NCBI GenBank assembly: GCA_000961845.1
Contig: LADZ01000022.1
Location: 1 to 33,328, forward strand
Direction of reading: 5' to 3'
DNA: 33,328 nucleotides
DNA from: Flavobacteriales bacterium BRH_c54
Lineage (GTDB): Bacteria > Bacteroidota > Bacteroidia > Flavobacteriales_E > Vicingaceae
In this document: in pieces, positions 7,526 to 16,395 of the stretch
Position numbering within the stretch: position 1 is the stretch's first letter
Layout of the letters: each line of letters begins with the position of its first letter
Made by a program: the position numbers and the translations under genes
The notes under the pieces: model-generated
The model's input: the letters and a program-made list of their open reading frames with translations, nothing else
What the model was told of the DNA's origin: nothing
The model's database searches: none

Positions 7526-7963
7526 TTACAATTCTACTGTAAGCTCACTGTAATAAGCATTCCCGGCATTTTGCCATTCTATTCTGAGCTTATACATGCC
7601 TGTTGAGAACAAGTCTAAAGGATAAACTAATGTCTTACTTTCTGATGTGAAATCAACTGATTGATCTAAATTTGCATCTGAAGGTTTAAAGAAATTAATA
7701 TTGCCTTTTATCTCTCCTTCTACTTCGCTTGGAAAAATCAATTGCAATTTATCATTTTCAATTTTATAGCTAACTTGTTCTTCAAAATGACTTTTCGTAA
7801 GTGCTTCTTTATCTTTCAATCCTTGAAAAGCTAATTCTTTTTCGTAATAATCTTCTGTAACTAAATCTACATTTTGTTGACTTGCTTTAAAAACCATAGC
7901 ACTCATAGACGCTACAAATAGTGTTATGAAAATTACGATGCCTGTTCCCCAATTAAATTTCAT
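7526..7963 (-). CDS. ccoH: cbb3 oxidase assembly protein CcoH (FixH family)
   Basis: A 145-aa protein with one N-terminal membrane anchor (about 5-27, starting MKFNWGTGIVIFITLFV) and an extracytoplasmic beta-rich domain. The segment DLVTEDYYEKELAFQ (about 34-48) is the FixH signature (V-x-x-x-YYE-x-x). CcoH is a single-span factor needed for stable assembly of CcoP with the CcoNO core. Its ATG overlaps the ccoG stop by one base (TAATG), which indicates translational coupling. It lies between ccoG and the TauE-like gene, as expected for this locus. Confidence 0.92.
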   Translation of the reverse strand: MKFNWGTGIVIFITLFVASMSAMVFKASQQNVDLVTEDYYEKELAFQGLKDKEALTKSHFEEQVSYKIENDKLQLIFPSEVEGEIKGNINFFKPSDANLDQSVDFTSESKTLVYPLDLFSTGMYKLRIEWQNAGNAYYSELTVEL

Positions 7964-9381
7964 TATTTAGTAGTGTTAGGTCCTAAAAAAGAGGTTTCAT
8001 TTTCATGAATAAGCTCTCCTCTATTGTAAATACCAATTTTAATAGTGGTAGATTTTTCTTTCAAATCCTCTTTTAAGATATTTACAAAAAATGCTTGTTG
8101 GTTGCTTTTTCCTTTTTCAAGTCTTAAAGTATCCATTCCAACCATTTTTATTTCACCATCCATGTTTTCAAGTTCAAAGGTAAGCTTTAAATCTTTATTG
8201 GATTTATTTACCACTTTAACATTATATAAGTTACTGATAAAGCCATTTTCTTGTTCTTGATACAACATTCCCGGAGTTCTTAAAATACTAGCCTCCATAC
8301 TTCCTCTCAAGGTAAACAAATAAATAATAAATCCAACAAGAATAATTAACACGGCTGTATATGCCTTGGCTCTTGTAGTAAAAAATTGTCTTTTATTTTC
8401 GGCAATTGCATTTTCGGAATCAATTCTAATTAAGCCTTTTTCAAGTCCAACATTTTCCATCATGTAATCGCAAGCATCTATACATGCTGTACAATTAATA
8501 CATTCTAATTGCGTACCATTTCTAATGTCAATTCCTGTGGGACAAACATCTACACATTGATGACAATCTATACAATCTCCTTTATTTTCTGATGCTCTGT
8601 CTTCATTTTTCTTGAATTTAGCTCTTTTTTCTCCACGAATATAATCGTAAGCTACTACCAAAGAATTCCTATCGAGCATAACACCTTGTAACCTACCGTA
8701 AGGACAAACTATCAAACAAACCTGCTCTCTAAACCATGCAAATACAAAGAAAAATACCCAGCTAAAAACTAGTATGGAAATAAAGCCTACAAGATGTTCC
8801 TGAATAGGAGATGTTTGAATTCTTACCAACTCATCTGAACCAATAATATACGCCAAAAAAGTATGGGCTATAATTACTGATATTAAATAAAACAAGCTAT
8901 ATTTAAAAACTCTTTTAACTATTTTTTGAGTGTTCCAAGCTTGTTTTTTTAATTGAATTTGTTGTTTATAATCGCCATCTATCCAATACTCAATTTTTCT
9001 AAAAACCATTTCCATAAAAATGGTTTGCGGACAAATCCACCCACAAAAAACCCTACCATAAACAGCAGTAAACAGCACGATAAAAATAACCATGGTTATC
9101 ATTATCAAAGCAAAGAGAAAAAAATCCTGCGGCCAAAAAACCTGACCAAATAACACAAACTTACGCTCAATAATATTGAACATTAAAAGCGGCTCACCAT
9201 CAATTTTTATCCACGGATTAGCAAATAATATAATTAACAGTAAGTAACTTAAATAAGTTCTGTAGTTGGTAAACTTACCTTTAGGCTTTTTTGGAAAAAG
9301 CCATTTCCTTTTCCCCTCATCATCAACTGTTGTAATTCTGTTTCTGAATGAAGCATTATCGTTTGATGTATTTGCTTCCAT
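7963..9381 (-). CDS. ccoG: cbb3 oxidase accessory protein CcoG (FixG/RdxA), polyferredoxin
   Basis: A 472-aa membrane iron-sulfur protein. Helices lie near 43-58, 85-107, 162-182, 197-216 and 338-357. Between them is the CGWICPQT motif (C113, C117) and VCLIVCPYGRLQG (C222, C226). The ferredoxin region carries two full 4Fe-4S ligand sets, C270/C273/C276/C280 and C294/C297/C300/C304. The C-terminal about 110 residues form an Ig-like extracytoplasmic domain typical of CcoG. The family is implicated in Cu(II) reduction during copper insertion into the CcoN active site. It starts 21 bases after ccoP and overlaps ccoH by one base. All expected ligands are present. Confidence 0.96.
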   Translation of the reverse strand: MEANTSNDNASFRNRITTVDDEGKRKWLFPKKPKGKFTNYRTYLSYLLLIILFANPWIKIDGEPLLMFNIIERKFVLFGQVFWPQDFFLFALIMITMVIFIVLFTAVYGRVFCGWICPQTIFMEMVFRKIEYWIDGDYKQQIQLKKQAWNTQKIVKRVFKYSLFYLISVIIAHTFLAYIIGSDELVRIQTSPIQEHLVGFISILVFSWVFFFVFAWFREQVCLIVCPYGRLQGVMLDRNSLVVAYDYIRGEKRAKFKKNEDRASENKGDCIDCHQCVDVCPTGIDIRNGTQLECINCTACIDACDYMMENVGLEKGLIRIDSENAIAENKRQFFTTRAKAYTAVLIILVGFIIYLFTLRGSMEASILRTPGMLYQEQENGFISNLYNVKVVNKSNKDLKLTFELENMDGEIKMVGMDTLRLEKGKSNQQAFFVNILKEDLKEKSTTIKIGIYNRGELIHENETSFLGPNTTK

Positions 9382-9402: not shown

Positions 9403-9996
9403 TTAATTCACTTTTTCGCCCTGAGGCTCTTTTCCACCCTCTACATTTTTACCTGCAAACTCGTTCAAAATATAACTAGCAACATTTTGCATTTGTTCTG
9501 GGTTTAATTGTGCTTCCCAAGGAATCATACCTTTTTCAGGAACACCATATTTAACCACTTTAAAAACTTCATTAATACTGTTTCCGTGTATCCAATAATC
9601 ATCGGTAAAATTTGGTCCTACTCCACCACCACCATTTACGGCATGACAAGCAACACAGTTTTTTTCATAAATAGCTTTACCATCTGCTAATTTATCAGCA
9701 TCTGTAACTAATACAACTGTATTTTCATCTACAGCAGCACCATGTTCTTTTTGGTAAGCTTCAATTTTTTCTGCAGCTACAGCATATTCTGCTTTTAACT
9801 CATCTTGCTGCTTAAATTTTCCCATTCCAAAAAACATAATAACGTATATTATTGAAAAAATTATTGTTCCATAGAACATGTACAGCCACCATGGCGGAAG
9901 TGCGTTATCTAATTCAATTATACCATCATATTCATGGTCTGTAACGTTACTATCCAAACCTTCAATTATTTCTGATTTTTCGATTTTATTTTCCAT
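9403..9996 (-). CDS. ccoP: cbb3 oxidase subunit CcoP, single-haem form
   Basis: A 197-aa membrane-anchored cytochrome c. The N-terminal CcoP domain has the motif HEYDGIIELDNALPPWW (21-37), followed by one membrane helix (about 38-58). After an alpha-helical linker comes one class I cytochrome c domain: haem site CVACH (C114, C117, H118), GVGPNF (126-131) and the probable axial methionine M157 in KGMIPW. Canonical CcoP subunits of Proteobacteria are about 300 aa with two such domains. Here there is room and sequence for only one. It takes electrons from soluble or membrane cytochromes to CcoO/CcoN. It is 19 bases from ccoQ upstream and 21 from ccoG downstream. Confidence 0.94.
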   Translation of the reverse strand: MENKIEKSEIIEGLDSNVTDHEYDGIIELDNALPPWWLYMFYGTIIFSIIYVIMFFGMGKFKQQDELKAEYAVAAEKIEAYQKEHGAAVDENTVVLVTDADKLADGKAIYEKNCVACHAVNGGGGVGPNFTDDYWIHGNSINEVFKVVKYGVPEKGMIPWEAQLNPEQMQNVASYILNEFAGKNVEGGKEPQGEKVN

Positions 9997-10217: not shown

Positions 10218-12344
10218 TTATTTTTCTACGTCTGCTCCTAACCTTTGTAAGTAAGCAATAAGAGCAATAATTTCTTTATTAGCATCCGCTTTCTCAATTC
10301 CCTCAGTTTTTAGTTGCTCTGCTATTTCATTGGCTTGTTTTTTCAAATCTTCAATAGCTTGTTGGTCATAACCTTCCGCATAAGGAACTCCCAGCGTTTG
10401 CATTGCTCTAATTTTTGCAGGCGTACTTTCTATGTCTATGTCTTTTTCTAACATCCAAGGATAAGAAGGCATAATAGAACCTGGCGACATACTTGTTGGG
10501 TTTTCCATGTGGTTATAATGCCAAGAGTGAGATTTTCTTAACTTTTTAGAACCTTCTCTAGCCAAATCCGGCCCTGTTCTTTTCGAACCCCACTGGAACG
10601 GATGGTCATAAACAAATTCACCAGATTTTGAATAATCCCCATATCTTTCCACCTCATGTCTGAATGGTCGAATCATTTGTGAGTGACAATTATAACATCC
10701 TTCTTTCACATAAATATCTCTACCTTGTAATTCAAGAGGTGTATATGGTTTTACTGCCTCAATGGTTGGCACATTAGATTTTACCAAGAAGGTAGGCACC
10801 ATTTCTACAGCTCCTCCAATTAATATTACAATTAATGAAAATATTAACAATTTAACTGGCTTTCTTTCAATAACTCTATGCCAGTGTTCTCCTTTATGAG
10901 GAGCATAAACAGGTTCTAAAGCAGGAGCTTCGGCAGCTTCATTATTTACAAACTGACCTTGTTTTACAGTTTTAATGATGTTATAAATCATCAATAATAC
11001 TCCAACTAAATACAATGTTCCTCCAATACTTCTAGTCATATACATAGGAACAATCTCTGTAACTGTTTCTAAGAAGTTAGGATATTTTAAATATCCATCA
11101 GTAGTAAACTCTTGCCACATTAAATATTGTGTAAATCCTGCAAAGTATAATGGCACAGCATAAACTAATATCCCTATAGTTCCTACCCAAAAGTGAACTC
11201 CGGCCAATTTTTCAGAATATAATTTAGTATTAAACATTCTAGGAATAAGCCAATACAACATCCCAAAAGTTAGGAATCCGTTCCAACCCAACGCTCCAAT
11301 ATGAACGTGTCCAACCGTCCAATCTGTATAATGACTAATCGCATTTACACTTTTTAACGATAACATTGGACCTTCAAAAGTTGCCATACCATAAGCAGTA
11401 ACTGCAACCACAAAGAATTTCAATACAGCACTATCTCTAACTTTATCCCAAGCACCACGAAGTGTTAATAATCCATTAATCATACCTCCCCAAGATGGAG
11501 CAATAAGCATTACCGAAAACACCACACCTAACGTTTGAGCCCACTCCGGTAGAGACGTATATAATAAATGGTGAGGTCCGGCCCAAATATATAGGAATAT
11601 TAACGCCCAAAAGTGAATAATAGATAGTTTATAAGAGTAAACCGGTCGTTGTGCTGCTTTTGGCAGAAAATAATACATTAATCCTAAATAAGGCGTTGTT
11701 AAAAAGAAAGCAACAGCATTATGTCCGTACCACCATTGTACTAACGCATCTTGAACACCTGCATACCATGAGTAACTTTTCATAAAGCTTACAGGCAATT
11801 CAAAGGAATTTACAAGGTGCAAAACTGCCACAGTCACAAAAGTGGCTATGTAAAACCAAATGGCAACATACAAATGTCTTTCTCTTCTTTGTAATATAGT
11901 TGCAAACATGTTCCATCCAAAAACTACCCAAATTAAAGTAATAGCTATATCTATTGGCCATTCTAATTCAGCATATTCCTTTCCGGTTGTAAACCCTGCT
12001 AATAAGGTTATTGCTGCGGAGACAATAATTAACTGCCATCCCCAGAAATTGATTAAACTTAATGTATCACTCCACATCCTAGTCTTAAGCAACCTTTGTA
12101 AAGAGTAATAAACCCCGGTAAAAATTCCATTACCCACAAATGCAAAAATTACTGCATTGGTATGCAAAGGTCTGGTTCTACCAAAGGTGGTAAACTCATA
12201 ATTAAAATTTAATGCCGGAATATACATTTGAAGTGCTACAAGCAATCCAACTAACATTCCTACTACGCCCCAAAAAATAGTTGCATAAGCGAATAGTTTT
12301 ACGATCTTATTGTCATAAAAAAACTTTTCTGTTTGCTGTGTCAT
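10218..12344 (-). CDS. ccoNO: Fused cbb3 cytochrome oxidase subunits I and II (CcoN-CcoO)
   Basis: A 708-aa fusion. Residues 1 to about 465 are the catalytic CcoN subunit with 12 helices; residues about 490-708 are the membrane-anchored monohaem cytochrome CcoO. In CcoN the low-spin haem b ligands H61 and H348 (in VGHVHIG), the high-spin b3 ligand H346, the CuB ligands H208, H258 and H259 (in YIWAGPHH) and the cbb3-specific cross-linked tyrosine Y252 are all present. In CcoO the haem site is CYNCH (C550, C553, H554) and the probable axial methionine is M625 in GSIMPSYP. The enzyme reduces O2 with high affinity and pumps protons. The fusion is frequent in Bacteroidota. It follows ccoS by 12 bases. 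Confidence 0.97.
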   Translation of the reverse strand: MTQQTEKFFYDNKIVKLFAYATIFWGVVGMLVGLLVALQMYIPALNFNYEFTTFGRTRPLHTNAVIFAFVGNGIFTGVYYSLQRLLKTRMWSDTLSLINFWGWQLIIVSAAITLLAGFTTGKEYAELEWPIDIAITLIWVVFGWNMFATILQRRERHLYVAIWFYIATFVTVAVLHLVNSFELPVSFMKSYSWYAGVQDALVQWWYGHNAVAFFLTTPYLGLMYYFLPKAAQRPVYSYKLSIIHFWALIFLYIWAGPHHLLYTSLPEWAQTLGVVFSVMLIAPSWGGMINGLLTLRGAWDKVRDSAVLKFFVVAVTAYGMATFEGPMLSLKSVNAISHYTDWTVGHVHIGALGWNGFLTFGMLYWLIPRMFNTKLYSEKLAGVHFWVGTIGILVYAVPLYFAGFTQYLMWQEFTTDGYLKYPNFLETVTEIVPMYMTRSIGGTLYLVGVLLMIYNIIKTVKQGQFVNNEAAEAPALEPVYAPHKGEHWHRVIERKPVKLLIFSLIVILIGGAVEMVPTFLVKSNVPTIEAVKPYTPLELQGRDIYVKEGCYNCHSQMIRPFRHEVERYGDYSKSGEFVYDHPFQWGSKRTGPDLAREGSKKLRKSHSWHYNHMENPTSMSPGSIMPSYPWMLEKDIDIESTPAKIRAMQTLGVPYAEGYDQQAIEDLKKQANEIAEQLKTEGIEKADANKEIIALIAYLQRLGADVEK

Positions 12345-12356
12345 AATTTATAAAGT

Positions 12357-12524
12357 TTATTTTGATTGATTTTTTGTTTCTTTTATCTCATCATCAAAAA
12401 GCATTCGCATTGATGGTGTATAATCATCTTCGTATTGCCCATCTTTTACAGACCAAACAAATGCTACCAGAAAACTGATAGCTACCGCTAAACTTACAAT
12501 GATTAATATAAATAGTACGCTCAT
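12357..12524 (-). CDS. ccoS: cbb3 oxidase maturation protein CcoS
   Basis: A 55-aa protein that begins MSVLFILIIVSLAVAISF, with one N-terminal membrane helix, then the CcoS signature FVWSVKDGQYEDDYTPSMR and a short polar tail. The stop codon is at 12357-12359. CcoS is required for cofactor insertion into the oxidase. The gene lies between ccoI and ccoNO, as is usual, and starts 93 bases downstream of the ccoI stop. A candidate FNR-regulated promoter lies directly upstream (12534-12577), with a predicted leader of only about five bases. Length and motif are normal for the family. Confidence 0.93.
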   Translation of the reverse strand: MSVLFILIIVSLAVAISFLVAFVWSVKDGQYEDDYTPSMRMLFDDEIKETKNQSK

Positions 12525-12533
12525 AATTTTCGG

Positions 12534-12577
12534 TAAAAGTATTACGAGTAAACTTAAAAAAACATGACTTTTGTCAA
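12534..12577 (-). promoter_or_regulatory. Candidate FNR-type promoter of ccoS-ccoNOQPGH
   Basis: The palindrome ATGACTTTTGTCAA lies at 12564-12577 (read on the minus strand TTGACAAAAGTCAT). It is close to the FNR/CRP-family consensus TTGAT-N4-ATCAA. Exactly 22 bases downstream is TACTTTTA (12541 down to 12534), one mismatch from the Bacteroidota -7 box TAnnTTTG. The palindrome centre would fall near -41.5, the class II activator position. The transcript start would be about five bases before the ccoS ATG. Confidence 0.6.
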
Positions 12578-12617
12578 ATTAACTAATGTCTTTTGGTGTT
12601 TCATTTTATGTTTCAAA

Positions 12618-15029
12618 TCAATCTACTTTCATCAACTTAGCAGAAAGGTTGGTTGCAACAGTTACAAAAACCACCACTGTAATTGAGCTCAAAGGCATTA
12701 AAATAGCTGCTAACACAGGAGACATTAAGCCTTGTACTGCAAAACTTAATCCCACAATATTGTATAAAAACGAAATAATAAAACTTGCAATAACTATATT
12801 GATACTCGTTTTGGCATACTTAAAAAACAAAGGTAATTTCTCAAAAACTTCAGCATCTAAAATGGCATCACATGCCGGAGAAAATGTATTTATATCTTCA
12901 GAAATAGAAATACCTACATTGCTTTGTTTTAAAGCCCCGGCATCATTTAATCCATCACCAATCATAGCTACTTTTTCATTTTGCTGTTGTAGTTCTTTAA
13001 TGTACCTAAGTTTTTGCTCGGGAGTTTGATTAAATAAAAAAGTATTTTCTTTAGAAAAATACACCAACAACCTTTGCTGTTCACTATCATTATCTCCCGA
13101 TACTAAATGGAGCTTAAAATATTGTTGCAACTGATTGATTACTTTTTTTAGGTTTTTTCTGTACGCATTTTCTAACTGAAACCTTCCTAATAATTTATTG
13201 TCAATTTTTACATAAACTACAGATGTTGTTGCAGCATCTTCTTTTGTAGTTTCAACAAAATTGGCAGAACCTATTTTCACCTTTTTTCCATTTACTGTTG
13301 CAACAATTCCTTTACCCAACACTTCTTCAAAATCTTTTGTTTCTATTATTTGGTAATTTTCTAATGTTGAAAAAACTAATTTACTAAGTGGATGTGATGA
13401 TTGTCTTAATAACGAAGCTACCGCATTTAATTCATCGTTATTCATTTGCTCTCCAATATAAGAAATAGAGGAATTTGCTGCCTGCGTAAGTGTTCCTGTT
13501 TTATCAAAAACTATCGTGCTAATTTTTGCTAGTTGTTCTATAACAGATGCATTTTTAAGATACAATTTATTTCTACCGAAAATTCTCAACACATTTCCAA
13601 AAGTAAATGGTGCGGATAAAGCCAACGCACAAGGGCAGGCAATAATTAAAACCGATGTAAAAGCATGTATAGCAATTTTCTTATCAATATTCCACCAATA
13701 AAACAAGCTGCCCAAGGCTATTACAATAATTATTAAGGTAAAATACTTACTAATGACATTAGTTATTCCTGCAAACTGATCCTGATTTTGTTTGGTAAAA
13801 GCTTCATCATTCCACAATTGAGTTAAGTAAGAATTAGAAATTTCTTTCAGTACTTTTAATTGTATGGCTTCTCCTTTTTGTTTTCCTCCGGCATAAATTT
13901 TTGTACCCACTTTAATCTCCACTGGTAAGGATTCACCTGTAACAAAACTATTATCAATTTTTGCTTCACCTGCTGTCAATTGTGCATCTACTGGAATAAT
14001 CTCATTATTTCTTATTAAAATAACATCGCCTTTTTTAAGTTCAGAAACAGCAATACTCACTTCCTCTCCACTTTCTTTAATAATGGTTGAAGATATTGGA
14101 AAATAAGATTTATAATCCCGCTCAAAAGATAGTACTGCATAGGTTTTTTGCTGAAAGACTTTTCCCAACAACATAAAAAAAATCAATCCTGCCAACGAAT
14201 CTAAATATCCCGCTCCTTGGTGAGTTACAATTTCATAAACACTTCTGAAAAACAGCGCTATTACTCCCAACACAATGGGAATATCTATGTTAATGGTTTT
14301 ATGTTTTATAGCTACCCATGCCGATTTTAAATAATCTGATGCACTATACACCAACACAGGGAAGGAAAGTAAAATATTGATGTATCCAAAGAATTTGGCA
14401 AAAGAAAGTTCTTTTATGTCGTCTAGTCCAAAATATTCGGGCAAACTCAGCATCATAATATTACCAAAAGCAAATCCGGCAATACCTAGCTTATACACTA
14501 AACTTCTGTCTATTTTATACTTTTTATCTTTTGATGTATCTGAGAAATTAATTTCAGGCTCGTAACCTATTGAAGCCAGTAATTCCACCAATTGCCTTAA
14601 CGAAAGTTGATGATAATTGAAAGACAGTTTAAGTTCTTTTTTTAGAAAGTTAATTCTCGATGAAAATACATGTGGATTTAGTTTGTATAAATTCTCTAAC
14701 AACCAAACACAAGAACTACAATGAACTTGTGGTAAATAGAAAGTAACCAACATTCTTTCCTCATCTTTAAAATCAATTAATTTTTCTACTATTTCTTGAT
14801 TTTCGAGGTACTCGTGTTTTTTAGAAACATTTTTTGGCGGAGAAATTCCAGGTGTTTTTTCTAAATCATAATAATTACATAAATCATTCTGATTAAGAAT
14901 TTCATAAACAGATTTACACCCTACGCAACAAAAAGACTTACTATCGAAAACCAATGTTTCTTCCAAACAATCTTCACCACAATGGTAACAAGTCGTTTTT
15001 TGCTTTGTATACGTTTTTTCTGCTTGCAT
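12618..15029 (-). CDS. ccoI: Copper-translocating P1B-type ATPase CcoI (FixI)
   Basis: An 803-aa pump that exports copper to the periplasm for assembly of the cbb3 oxidase. Order of parts: an N-terminal cysteine-rich metal-binding segment (C14/C17 and C34/C35/C38), a heavy-metal domain with CSSC (C104, C107), eight membrane helices, actuator motif TGES (364-367), the ion-binding CPC (465-467), phosphorylation site DKTGTLT (D509), HP (546-547) and the hinge GDGLNDAGAL (691-700). The N-terminal cysteine domain and the setting beside ccoS and ccoN separate it from general CopA pumps. Its start at 15029 would give an almost leaderless mRNA from the candidate FNR-type promoter. The 93-base gap to ccoS contains a second such promoter. 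Confidence 0.95.
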   Translation of the reverse strand: MQAEKTYTKQKTTCYHCGEDCLEETLVFDSKSFCCVGCKSVYEILNQNDLCNYYDLEKTPGISPPKNVSKKHEYLENQEIVEKLIDFKDEERMLVTFYLPQVHCSSCVWLLENLYKLNPHVFSSRINFLKKELKLSFNYHQLSLRQLVELLASIGYEPEINFSDTSKDKKYKIDRSLVYKLGIAGFAFGNIMMLSLPEYFGLDDIKELSFAKFFGYINILLSFPVLVYSASDYLKSAWVAIKHKTINIDIPIVLGVIALFFRSVYEIVTHQGAGYLDSLAGLIFFMLLGKVFQQKTYAVLSFERDYKSYFPISSTIIKESGEEVSIAVSELKKGDVILIRNNEIIPVDAQLTAGEAKIDNSFVTGESLPVEIKVGTKIYAGGKQKGEAIQLKVLKEISNSYLTQLWNDEAFTKQNQDQFAGITNVISKYFTLIIIVIALGSLFYWWNIDKKIAIHAFTSVLIIACPCALALSAPFTFGNVLRIFGRNKLYLKNASVIEQLAKISTIVFDKTGTLTQAANSSISYIGEQMNNDELNAVASLLRQSSHPLSKLVFSTLENYQIIETKDFEEVLGKGIVATVNGKKVKIGSANFVETTKEDAATTSVVYVKIDNKLLGRFQLENAYRKNLKKVINQLQQYFKLHLVSGDNDSEQQRLLVYFSKENTFLFNQTPEQKLRYIKELQQQNEKVAMIGDGLNDAGALKQSNVGISISEDINTFSPACDAILDAEVFEKLPLFFKYAKTSINIVIASFIISFLYNIVGLSFAVQGLMSPVLAAILMPLSSITVVVFVTVATNLSAKLMKVD

Positions 15030-15036
15030 ATAAATG

Positions 15037-15080
15037 CAAAATTCAGTGGTTTTAATTTATAAAACCATGAATTTTGTCAT
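15037..15080 (-). promoter_or_regulatory. Candidate FNR-type promoter of ccoI
   Basis: The palindrome ATGAATTTTGTCAT at 15067-15080 (minus strand ATGACAAAATTCAT) matches the ccoS-side box at 12 of 14 positions. As at ccoS, exactly 22 bases separate it from a -7-like box, GAATTTTG (15044 down to 15037), one mismatch from TAnnTTTG. The implied start of transcription is within a few bases of the ccoI ATG. The shared geometry is the main support. Confidence 0.58.
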
Positions 15081-15108: not shown

Positions 15109-16395
15109 TTATTTATTCATTAAGCGAATGGTTCCATTATGATGATATGCTTTTCCACTTACATCATAAGTTACCACTTTCCATAAGTAAATATCGTTTG
15201 GAAGTTGTTCTCCTGAGTTGTTTAGCTTACCATTCCATGGTTTAGATTTATCAGTAGTTTCATAAATTAACTTGCCGCTTTTATCGGTAATAATCATTTT
15301 GAAATTTACATCCCAACCTAATAATGCTTTAGGAATAAATGTTTGATTTTCTTCAATAGAACTATTAGGAATAAATCCTGATGGAGCTAACAAATCCATA
15401 TCTAAGGTAATTTCCACAGATTTAGTAAACTCCACATAACAACCTGATTGGTGAGTAAGCATTAGTGTTACATCATAAGTTCCTTTGTCTTCAAAAACAA
15501 AACTTGGTGTTACTTCTGTAGATGTTCTTCCATCATTCGTTTTCCACAAATAAGCGCTAATGTTTTGGTTTTCTGTTTTAAGCGTTGTGGCGGGATAAGA
15601 AAATTTATTTTTATCGTGAGCTAATGCCTCTTCTGTATAAGTAAAATCTTTAGTTGGTGTTGGAAGAATGGTTACACTTCCTACATCTTCAACTGTTTTT
15701 TGTTTGGTTTCATTGTTTACAACAGTTAATGTTACCTCATAATTTCCTGCTTTATCATATACATGATGTGGTTGTGCATTATTTGATGTTGTTCCATCAC
15801 CAAAATCCCATAAATAAGATGGGTTATAAGCATTAACTTTTGATTTGAATACTACTTGCTGACCTAAACATACTGTTGAGCTCAACACTTCCGCCTGTAC
15901 ATTTAAATCTGCAACAGTGTTGTTATTGTTTTCAGGCGTTTTATTATCAACTATTTCTTTTTGTTTAATATCTTCAACCAACAAAGGTGTTTTTTCTTCC
16001 GATAATTGCTCTGTTATTTTTTCATCAATAACTTGAGTTTGGTTAGCATGATTTTCCTGAATATTATTTTCGTTGTTGGTAGTATTAATAGTTGTATTAT
16101 TTGTATTGGAAGTTTCTTCCTTAATTAAAGGAGCTTGTTCGTTAGTATTAACTTCTGTTGAATAATTTTCTATACTATTTTTATCATCCATATTATTATT
16201 GGAGATAAAGTAAGCAGAAACAGCTACCACAGCAACAACTGAAGCTGCAATAGCAATATTTTTAATGTATTGAACATTTTTTAACGAATTTAATTTAGCA
16301 TCCATCTCATTCCAATGGGCTTCATTAAAAGGAACTTCGTGTTGTTCAATTTTGTCTTTTATTAATTTTTCGAATTTATCCATGTTTTTGGGCAT
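15109..16395 (-). CDS. Anti-sigma-like membrane protein with two PKD domains and a CHU_C-type C-terminus
   Basis: A 428-aa protein. Residues 1-44 are a charged helical region like those that open Bacteroidota anti-sigma and ECF-linked membrane proteins (DKFEKLIKDKIEQHE, HWNEMDAKL). One membrane helix spans about 45-64. A low-complexity Asn/Thr/Glu linker (70-160) follows. PKD domain 1 lies at about 165-245 (YLWDFGDGTT), PKD domain 2 at about 248-330 (YLWKTNDGRT). The C-terminus (331-428) resembles the gliding-motility CHU_C domain (DKSGKLIYET, PWNGKLNNSG, DIYLW, GTIRLMNK). Its gene overlaps the sigma factor gene by 20 bases. A second ATG at 16383 (Met5) is an equally good or better start. I infer an extracytoplasmic sensor that holds the sigma factor; this is not proven. 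Confidence 0.85.
   Translation of the reverse strand: MPKNMDKFEKLIKDKIEQHEVPFNEAHWNEMDAKLNSLKNVQYIKNIAIAASVVAVVAVSAYFISNNNMDDKNSIENYSTEVNTNEQAPLIKEETSNTNNTTINTTNNENNIQENHANQTQVIDEKITEQLSEEKTPLLVEDIKQKEIVDNKTPENNNNTVADLNVQAEVLSSTVCLGQQVVFKSKVNAYNPSYLWDFGDGTTSNNAQPHHVYDKAGNYEVTLTVVNNETKQKTVEDVGSVTILPTPTKDFTYTEEALAHDKNKFSYPATTLKTENQNISAYLWKTNDGRTSTEVTPSFVFEDKGTYDVTLMLTHQSGCYVEFTKSVEITLDMDLLAPSGFIPNSSIEENQTFIPKALLGWDVNFKMIITDKSGKLIYETTDKSKPWNGKLNNSGEQLPNDIYLWKVVTYDVSGKAYHHNGTIRLMNK

Follow-up and report, generated by a model that had tools for sequence, protein, structure and literature searches.

A conserved pair of predicted class II FNR-type promoters upstream of ccoI and ccoS in a Flavobacteriales bacterium

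The cbb3 oxidase locus of Flavobacteriales bacterium BRH_c54 (Vicingaceae; GCA_000961845.1) carries a conserved pair of predicted class II FNR-type promoters, one upstream of ccoI and one upstream of ccoS, within the window studied here, that is, the whole analysed stretch of 33,328 nt from contig LADZ01000022.1. Very probably, these are two activator-dependent promoters driving ccoI and ccoS-ccoNO-ccoP-ccoG-ccoH, respectively, under an oxygen-responsive FNR-like dimer, most likely of the protein L001 encoded elsewhere in the same genome. This reading builds on the two sites, their fixed spacing and their conservation, on a regulator gene with its characteristic cysteines, and on the position of this gene beside and divergent from ccoI in relatives, all of which are directly observed.

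The promoter elements and cco genes described next all lie on the minus strand. 5' of ccoI, the FNR-like near-palindrome ATGACAAAATTCAT (15067..15080) is followed by a 22-nt spacer (15045..15066), whose sequence is scarcely conserved among the selected promoters, and by the -7 box GAATTTTG (15037..15044); transcription would start at 15032, 4 nt past the box, leaving a leader of 3 nt before the ATG at 15029. The gene itself (12618..15029) encodes the 803-aa copper-transporting P-type ATPase for cbb3 assembly (Pfam E1-E2_ATPase and ATPase-cat_bd). Likewise, 5' of ccoS, the near-palindrome TTGACAAAAGTCAT (12564..12577), a 22-nt spacer (12542..12563) and the -7 box TACTTTTA (12534..12541) lead to a predicted start at 12529 and a leader of 5 nt before the ATG at 12524. 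The ccoS gene (12357..12524; cbb3 maturation protein of 55 aa, Pfam FixS) is followed by ccoNO (10218..12344), in which ccoN and ccoO form a single 708-aa frame (COX1 plus FixO), and by ccoP-like (9403..9996; FixP_N, Cytochrome_CBB3), ccoG-like (7963..9381; FixG_C, Fer4_18), and ccoH-like (7526..7963; FixH) genes. Upstream of ccoI stands a gene for a PKD/CHU_C type IX secretion protein (15109-16395), in a place where many relatives carry an fnr-like gene.

The geometry reported in a first-pass annotation of this DNA was reproduced in full: the two 14-mers are found at their minus-strand places and are identical at 12 of 14 positions, a box begins exactly 22 nt after each of them, and each box has one mismatch to TAnnTTTG, thus sharing 5 of 6 letters with the Bacteroidota sigma-A box. 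Each near-palindrome is imperfect, with 4 of 5 arm pairs matching. Once the box is set at -12 to -5, its position in the start mapping of F. psychrophilum (PMC9723704), both palindrome centres, earlier proposed to lie near -41.5, fall at exactly this position.

Class II promoters of FNR and CRP in E. coli are characterized by a dyad that is centred on -41.5 and precedes the -10 type element by 22 bp, where the activator replaces the upstream promoter element. Both promoters described here, with their starts placed from the boxes, have the same -41.5 dyad and 22-bp spacing, and the activator would likewise take the place of the upstream element. Since the 22-bp class II spacing is known from E. 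coli FNR and CRP, the spacing rule to the -7 box, which had been put forward as the new part, is not in itself new. The two systems differ in the downstream element (TATAAT in E. coli versus TAnnTTTG), the half-site, and the recognition helix (GLTVETISR versus GTATESVIR by alignment). The earlier likening of the sites to the FNR/CRP consensus stands for the TGAnnnnnnTCA core, which is all that TTGACAAAAGTCAT and ATGACAAAATTCAT have in common with the FNR consensus TTGATnnnnATCAA, but not for the half-site, which is (A/C/T)TGA(C/T) rather than a clean FNR TTGAT.

As bare words, the palindromes are about as frequent in the window as expected by chance: TTGACN4GTCAA with up to two mismatches occurs 16 times versus 17.7 expected, WTGACAAAANTCAT with up to three mismatches 76 times versus 70.7 expected, and the only zero-mismatch matches to WTGACAAAANTCAT are the ccoI and ccoS sites. 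Because these counts are at chance level, the word alone is no evidence, and its significance rests on position and conservation instead. These were assessed in 120 genomes including the own one, 104 of which matched ccoI; besides the own locus, those of 69 relatives whose matches were ccoI-like were used, whereas 34 genomes were set aside because they matched through distant P-type ATPases only. One locus (G042) is without a ccoI start, leaving 69 for ccoI, and one more has less than 120 nt upstream, leaving 68, while CcoS was accepted at E <= 1e-8 in 56 of the 70 loci. With the own genome counted, TGAN6TCA occurs within 120 nt upstream of ccoI in 45/68 loci (dinucleotide-shuffle mean 2.8, maximum 12) and of ccoS in 49/56 (mean 2.3, maximum 8). 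A TTTG placed for an 8-nt box starting 22 nt after the palindrome is found in 27/68 and 28/56 loci, respectively, where shuffling yields means of 0.02 and 0.01 with a maximum of 1, and the next commonest spacing is seen in just 3 ccoI and 5 ccoS loci. Chance similarity in AT-rich DNA, an explanation that the chance-level frequency of the bare word in the window would favour, was rejected on this comparison of the conserved arrangement with shuffles, and the fixed spacing together with the conservation makes it exceedingly improbable.

Beyond the window's family, the arrangement at spacing 22 recurs in 17/30 ccoS and 9/39 ccoI promoters, so that ccoS is the better conserved of the two there. 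If the box end is relaxed to TTT[AG], for which the background rate is 2.6 %, 28/69 ccoI and 38/56 ccoS promoters fit, the latter spanning 17 families, and a box at exactly 22 is absent from the other 41/69 and 18/56. Among 15 loci of a named collection (Flavobacteriaceae and others), ccoS was matched in 13 and fits in 10 of them, two of these ten (L139 and L138) being, as judged by length, duplicates of G002 and G004 contigs, and ccoI fits at 22 in 3/15, with the TTT one base further in 5 more. A phylum-wide search gave a match in 88/118 genomes, with few matches in those outside the class. Relatives have thus kept the palindromes and, most notably, the distance of 22 nt between palindrome and box, so that the FNR-like reading passes the conservation check proposed in the first-pass annotation.

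A preference for this spacing is also seen genome-wide. In the 119 relatives, HTGAYN4RTCAD followed by TTTG gives 951 matches at spacing 22 versus 121 for the reversed pattern, and 290 versus 139 at spacing 24; per genome, 98 are richer at 22, 13 at 24, and 8 are equal. As the count at spacing 24 exceeds its own control, part of the palindrome signal is independent of the 22-nt spacing. The own genome contains 11 exact matches versus 1 for the reversed pattern.

Bacteroidota sigma-A promoters possess a TTTG element at -33. A protein bound at -41.5 could block rather than activate transcription, as the site overlaps the position that such an element would occupy. We regard this repressor reading as highly unlikely: the exact 22-nt spacing and the imperfect boxes suit class II activation instead, a tandem site at -63.5 (see below) fits activation better than repression, and no TTTG lies 17-21 nt before the box in any of the fitting promoters (0/28 ccoI, 0/38 ccoS), a partial test only, since this stretch overlaps the selected palindrome, which fixes some of its letters.

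Taking the box position from F. psychrophilum, the predicted leaders of 3 nt (ccoI) and 5 nt (ccoS) would correspond to the nearly leaderless mRNAs previously suggested for the two genes. However, the median predicted leader in relatives is 7 nt for ccoI (28 promoters) and 13 nt for ccoS (38 promoters), so that near-leaderless mRNA is no general rule for ccoS. In F. psychrophilum, the median leader is 24 nt, with 5.5 % leaderless (PMC9723704).

What protein could read these sites? The window holds no CRP/FNR gene, as noted earlier, and the seven cNMP_binding matches of the genome are all on other contigs. Among them is L001 on contig C33 (G000:C33:8511-9218), a 236-aa FNR-like protein and the kind of Crp/Fnr-family member that the first-pass annotation had proposed to seek, whose orthologues adjoin ccoI in relatives. 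By Pfam it belongs to the Crp/Fnr superfamily (cNMP_binding 84.5 bits, HTH_Crp_2 61 bits, both over the cut-offs), and it aligns to solved FNR chains at ~1e-23; with 110.4 bits against the NCBIfam model PRK11161 Fnr (cut-off 228), it is FNR-like rather than filed as Fnr. Like FNR, it has three N-terminal cysteines and a central one (C10, C13, C22, and C113, forming CxxCx8C plus the central cysteine), from which a [4Fe-4S] cluster is predicted; the third N-terminal cysteine is differently spaced in the aligned solved FNR chain (CxxCx5C). These four residues are kept in 29, 29, 28, and 28 of 30 homologous loci, respectively (G034 is shortened and G049 unaligned).

The L001 orthologue is divergent from ccoI, at a distance of 45-154 nt, in 15 genomes belonging to the window's family, an arrangement not seen in the window's own genus (G000-G005). 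In one of the 15 (G034:C2; L104, L165), a stop interrupts this fnr-like neighbour of ccoI in the assembly. Furthermore, 11 of the 15 named loci have an FNR-like gene divergent beside ccoI. The proteins encoded there (L140-L146 and L148-L151) all keep CxxC, C59, and C113 and lack the third N-terminal cysteine (11/11), a pattern that possibly represents another set of cluster ligands.

A paralogue, chiefly L002 (C30:19620-20321), might read the same promoters instead of L001, or several regulators might do so in turn as a cascade. L002 and L003 bear cysteine sets similar to that of L001, L002 having CxxC...C plus a central cysteine and the similar helix GTTTETSIRML, and the L002 ATG is preceded at 17 nt by an exact class II site, because of which L002 may be a second step. 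Against L002 as the reader, best matching identifies L001 as the orthologue, and in 8 of the 15 genomes (G007, G009, G010, G012, G014, G019, G021, and G022) the lone L001-like match (E <= 1e-20) is the very neighbour of ccoI, where the palindrome is present upstream of ccoI in 8/8 and TTTG at exactly 22 in 6/8. We therefore give the paralogue a minor though real chance. Adjoining L002, and under an exact class II site of its own, is the gene for a 154-aa cNMP-binding protein without HTH (L004; G000:C30:20506-20757).

With L001 as the most likely regulator, and since both sites recur with the same layout in many families, an FNR-like protein probably switches cbb3 at low oxygen. We infer how this would work, from the Fe-S cluster and its response to oxygen to DNA binding, the start sites, and the choice of the acting paralogue: at low oxygen, the cysteine-bound cluster would stay intact and permit dimer formation; the dimer would bind (A/C/T)TGA(C/T)N4(A/G)TCA(T) centred at -41.5, stand in for the -33 element, and recruit RNA polymerase to the weak TAnnTTTG-like box 22 nt downstream, so that oxidase and copper-loading ATPase would be made together. 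Several observations weigh against this model: the promoters with no box at exactly 22, above all those of ccoI outside the family; the place of the regulator gene away from ccoI in the own genus; the low Fnr score of L001 and the deviating spacing of its third N-terminal cysteine; the two further cysteine-bearing paralogues; and the loss of that third cysteine in the regulators of the named Flavobacteriaceae. In F. psychrophilum, whose sigma-A promoters have the same TAnnTTTG box, cbb3 is strongly upregulated under oxygen limitation, and the main text of that study leaves Crp unmentioned (PMC9723704).

The exact matches in the own genome name candidate targets, several of which are typical of low oxygen and some not. 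Exact sites precede feoA, a DUF4920 gene, and a DinB-type gene; two lie before a di-haem CCP/MauG protein gene with a small gene, and another is 186 nt from a tryptophanase-like gene. At C61:14057, the exact site shares 44 bases with the site before cysH in G004, and C32:12218 is a further exact match. An exact class II site is also located at G000:C63:14540-14583, 116 nt before the gene of a 153-aa protein without Pfam or NCBIfam match. Of 63 one-mismatch matches, four (L121, L128, L129, and L132) were picked by eye; they include sites before hemA, moaCB, and the gene of a haem-binding protein, which are therefore examples rather than a regulon.

These targets also bear on the nature of the signal, as a CRP-like or HcpR-like sensor of carbon or nitric oxide could use the sites with oxygen not being the input. 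For instance, TTGACnnnnGTCAA, the word predicted for HcpR in delta-proteobacteria and two cyanobacteria, differs by a single base from the ccoS site; for HcpR2 of Bacteroides, in contrast, the word GTAACnnnnGTTAC and hcp as the sole target are predicted (PMC1274295). A microbiome study predicted a role as MalR-like carbon sensors for the CRP/FNR homologues in a Flavobacteriales genome (PMC8510549), and some word matches here precede non-respiratory genes (DinB, tryptophanase-like). Nevertheless, the FNR-type cysteines, the oxygen-limited induction of cbb3 in a flavobacterium (PMC9723704), and the candidate targets feoA, di-haem protein, hemA, and moaCB all argue for oxygen, and we consider a sensor of another signal unlikely.

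Many ccoS promoters possess a second palindrome. Pairs of palindromes at an offset of exactly 22 occur in 17/56 ccoS and 5/69 ccoI upstream regions, with other offsets seen once each; by a looser score, 21 of the 45 ccoS promoters having a -41.5 site show a second one 22 bp upstream, and no other offset between 14 and 39 is found in more than 2 ccoS promoters. In L102, L103, L096, L053, and other ccoS regions, the upstream palindrome is usually the better of the two; in G067, the near site is weak (5/8 letters).

In several families, a different kind of regulator is found near ccoI. A regulator of ~350 aa is encoded on the same strand within ~0.7 kb of ccoI in G048, G094, G054, and G098 (and, broken by stops, in G101), and at 2-4 kb in G084, G086, G093, and G056. 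The long regulators tested (5/5) combine Response_reg, cNMP_binding, and HTH_Crp_2 domains, as exemplified near ccoI by L102:4653-5708, L064:4831-5892, L043:3435-4496, L055:10622-11689, and L073:1425-2474, and the tested neighbours of the fusion genes (4/4) are PAS-HisKA-HATPase kinases. The fusions are without the cysteines, but their helices (GTSTESVIRTL, GTATETVIRAL) match that of L001 (GTATESVIRLL); in G066, too, the regulator has the helix and no cysteines. Near-full-length matches to the fusion occur in 56/120 genomes. Since the receiver-CRP/FNR fusion near ccoI keeps the same DNA-reading helix, gene layout and helix identity suggest that sensors were swapped under a conserved promoter. 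To compare promoters by sensor class, the classes were based on one L001-like match (E <= 1e-20) and on whether a full-length match to the fusion accompanies it, 2/10 and 2/17 promoters being unscorable: tandem ccoS promoters occur in 13/15 fusion-only genomes versus 2/8 FNR-like-only genomes (Fisher p 0.006, kinship ignored), and, within the window's family, in 4/5 versus 0/6. Tentatively, and with rather less than even confidence, these sequence patterns could reflect a class-wide cbb3 promoter module, in which TGAYN4RTCA at -41.5 (in many lineages with a second copy 22 bp upstream) and the helix GTATExxIR are kept and the sensors are exchangeable, namely a cysteine-cluster FNR in the window's family and a PAS-kinase-fed receiver in others, the single or tandem layout following the sensor type.

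In rhizobia, a Crp/Fnr-family activator of the FixLJ-FixK or FnrN type turns on the fixNOQP cbb3 genes at low oxygen. Our model is alike in that a Crp/Fnr-family activator is predicted for the cbb3 genes at low oxygen. In contrast to the separate rhizobial FixJ and FixK, some families here unite receiver and Crp/Fnr activator in a single protein, whose gene adjoins that of a PAS kinase, and the window's family has a cysteine-bearing FNR-like protein. Neither a described FNR/cbb3 site in Bacteroidota nor a fusion of receiver and Crp/Fnr parts at cbb3 turned up in a literature search, which, with subscription papers thinly covered, is weak evidence of absence.

For the Bacteroidota, in which few regulators have known sites, the finding provides a promoter rule readable from sequence, consisting of the word, the 22-nt spacing, and the box, and it names a likely activator together with candidate co-regulated genes for iron uptake, haem, molybdopterin, and a di-haem protein. 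If the receiver fusion is what it seems, it and the PAS kinase would condense the rhizobial FixL-FixJ-FixK cascade to two proteins, the receiver having been fused directly onto the Crp/Fnr activator. Moreover, should the sensor swap hold, these bacteria would offer a natural experiment in promoter adaptation, in which the input of the regulator was changed while its DNA-reading helix was kept.
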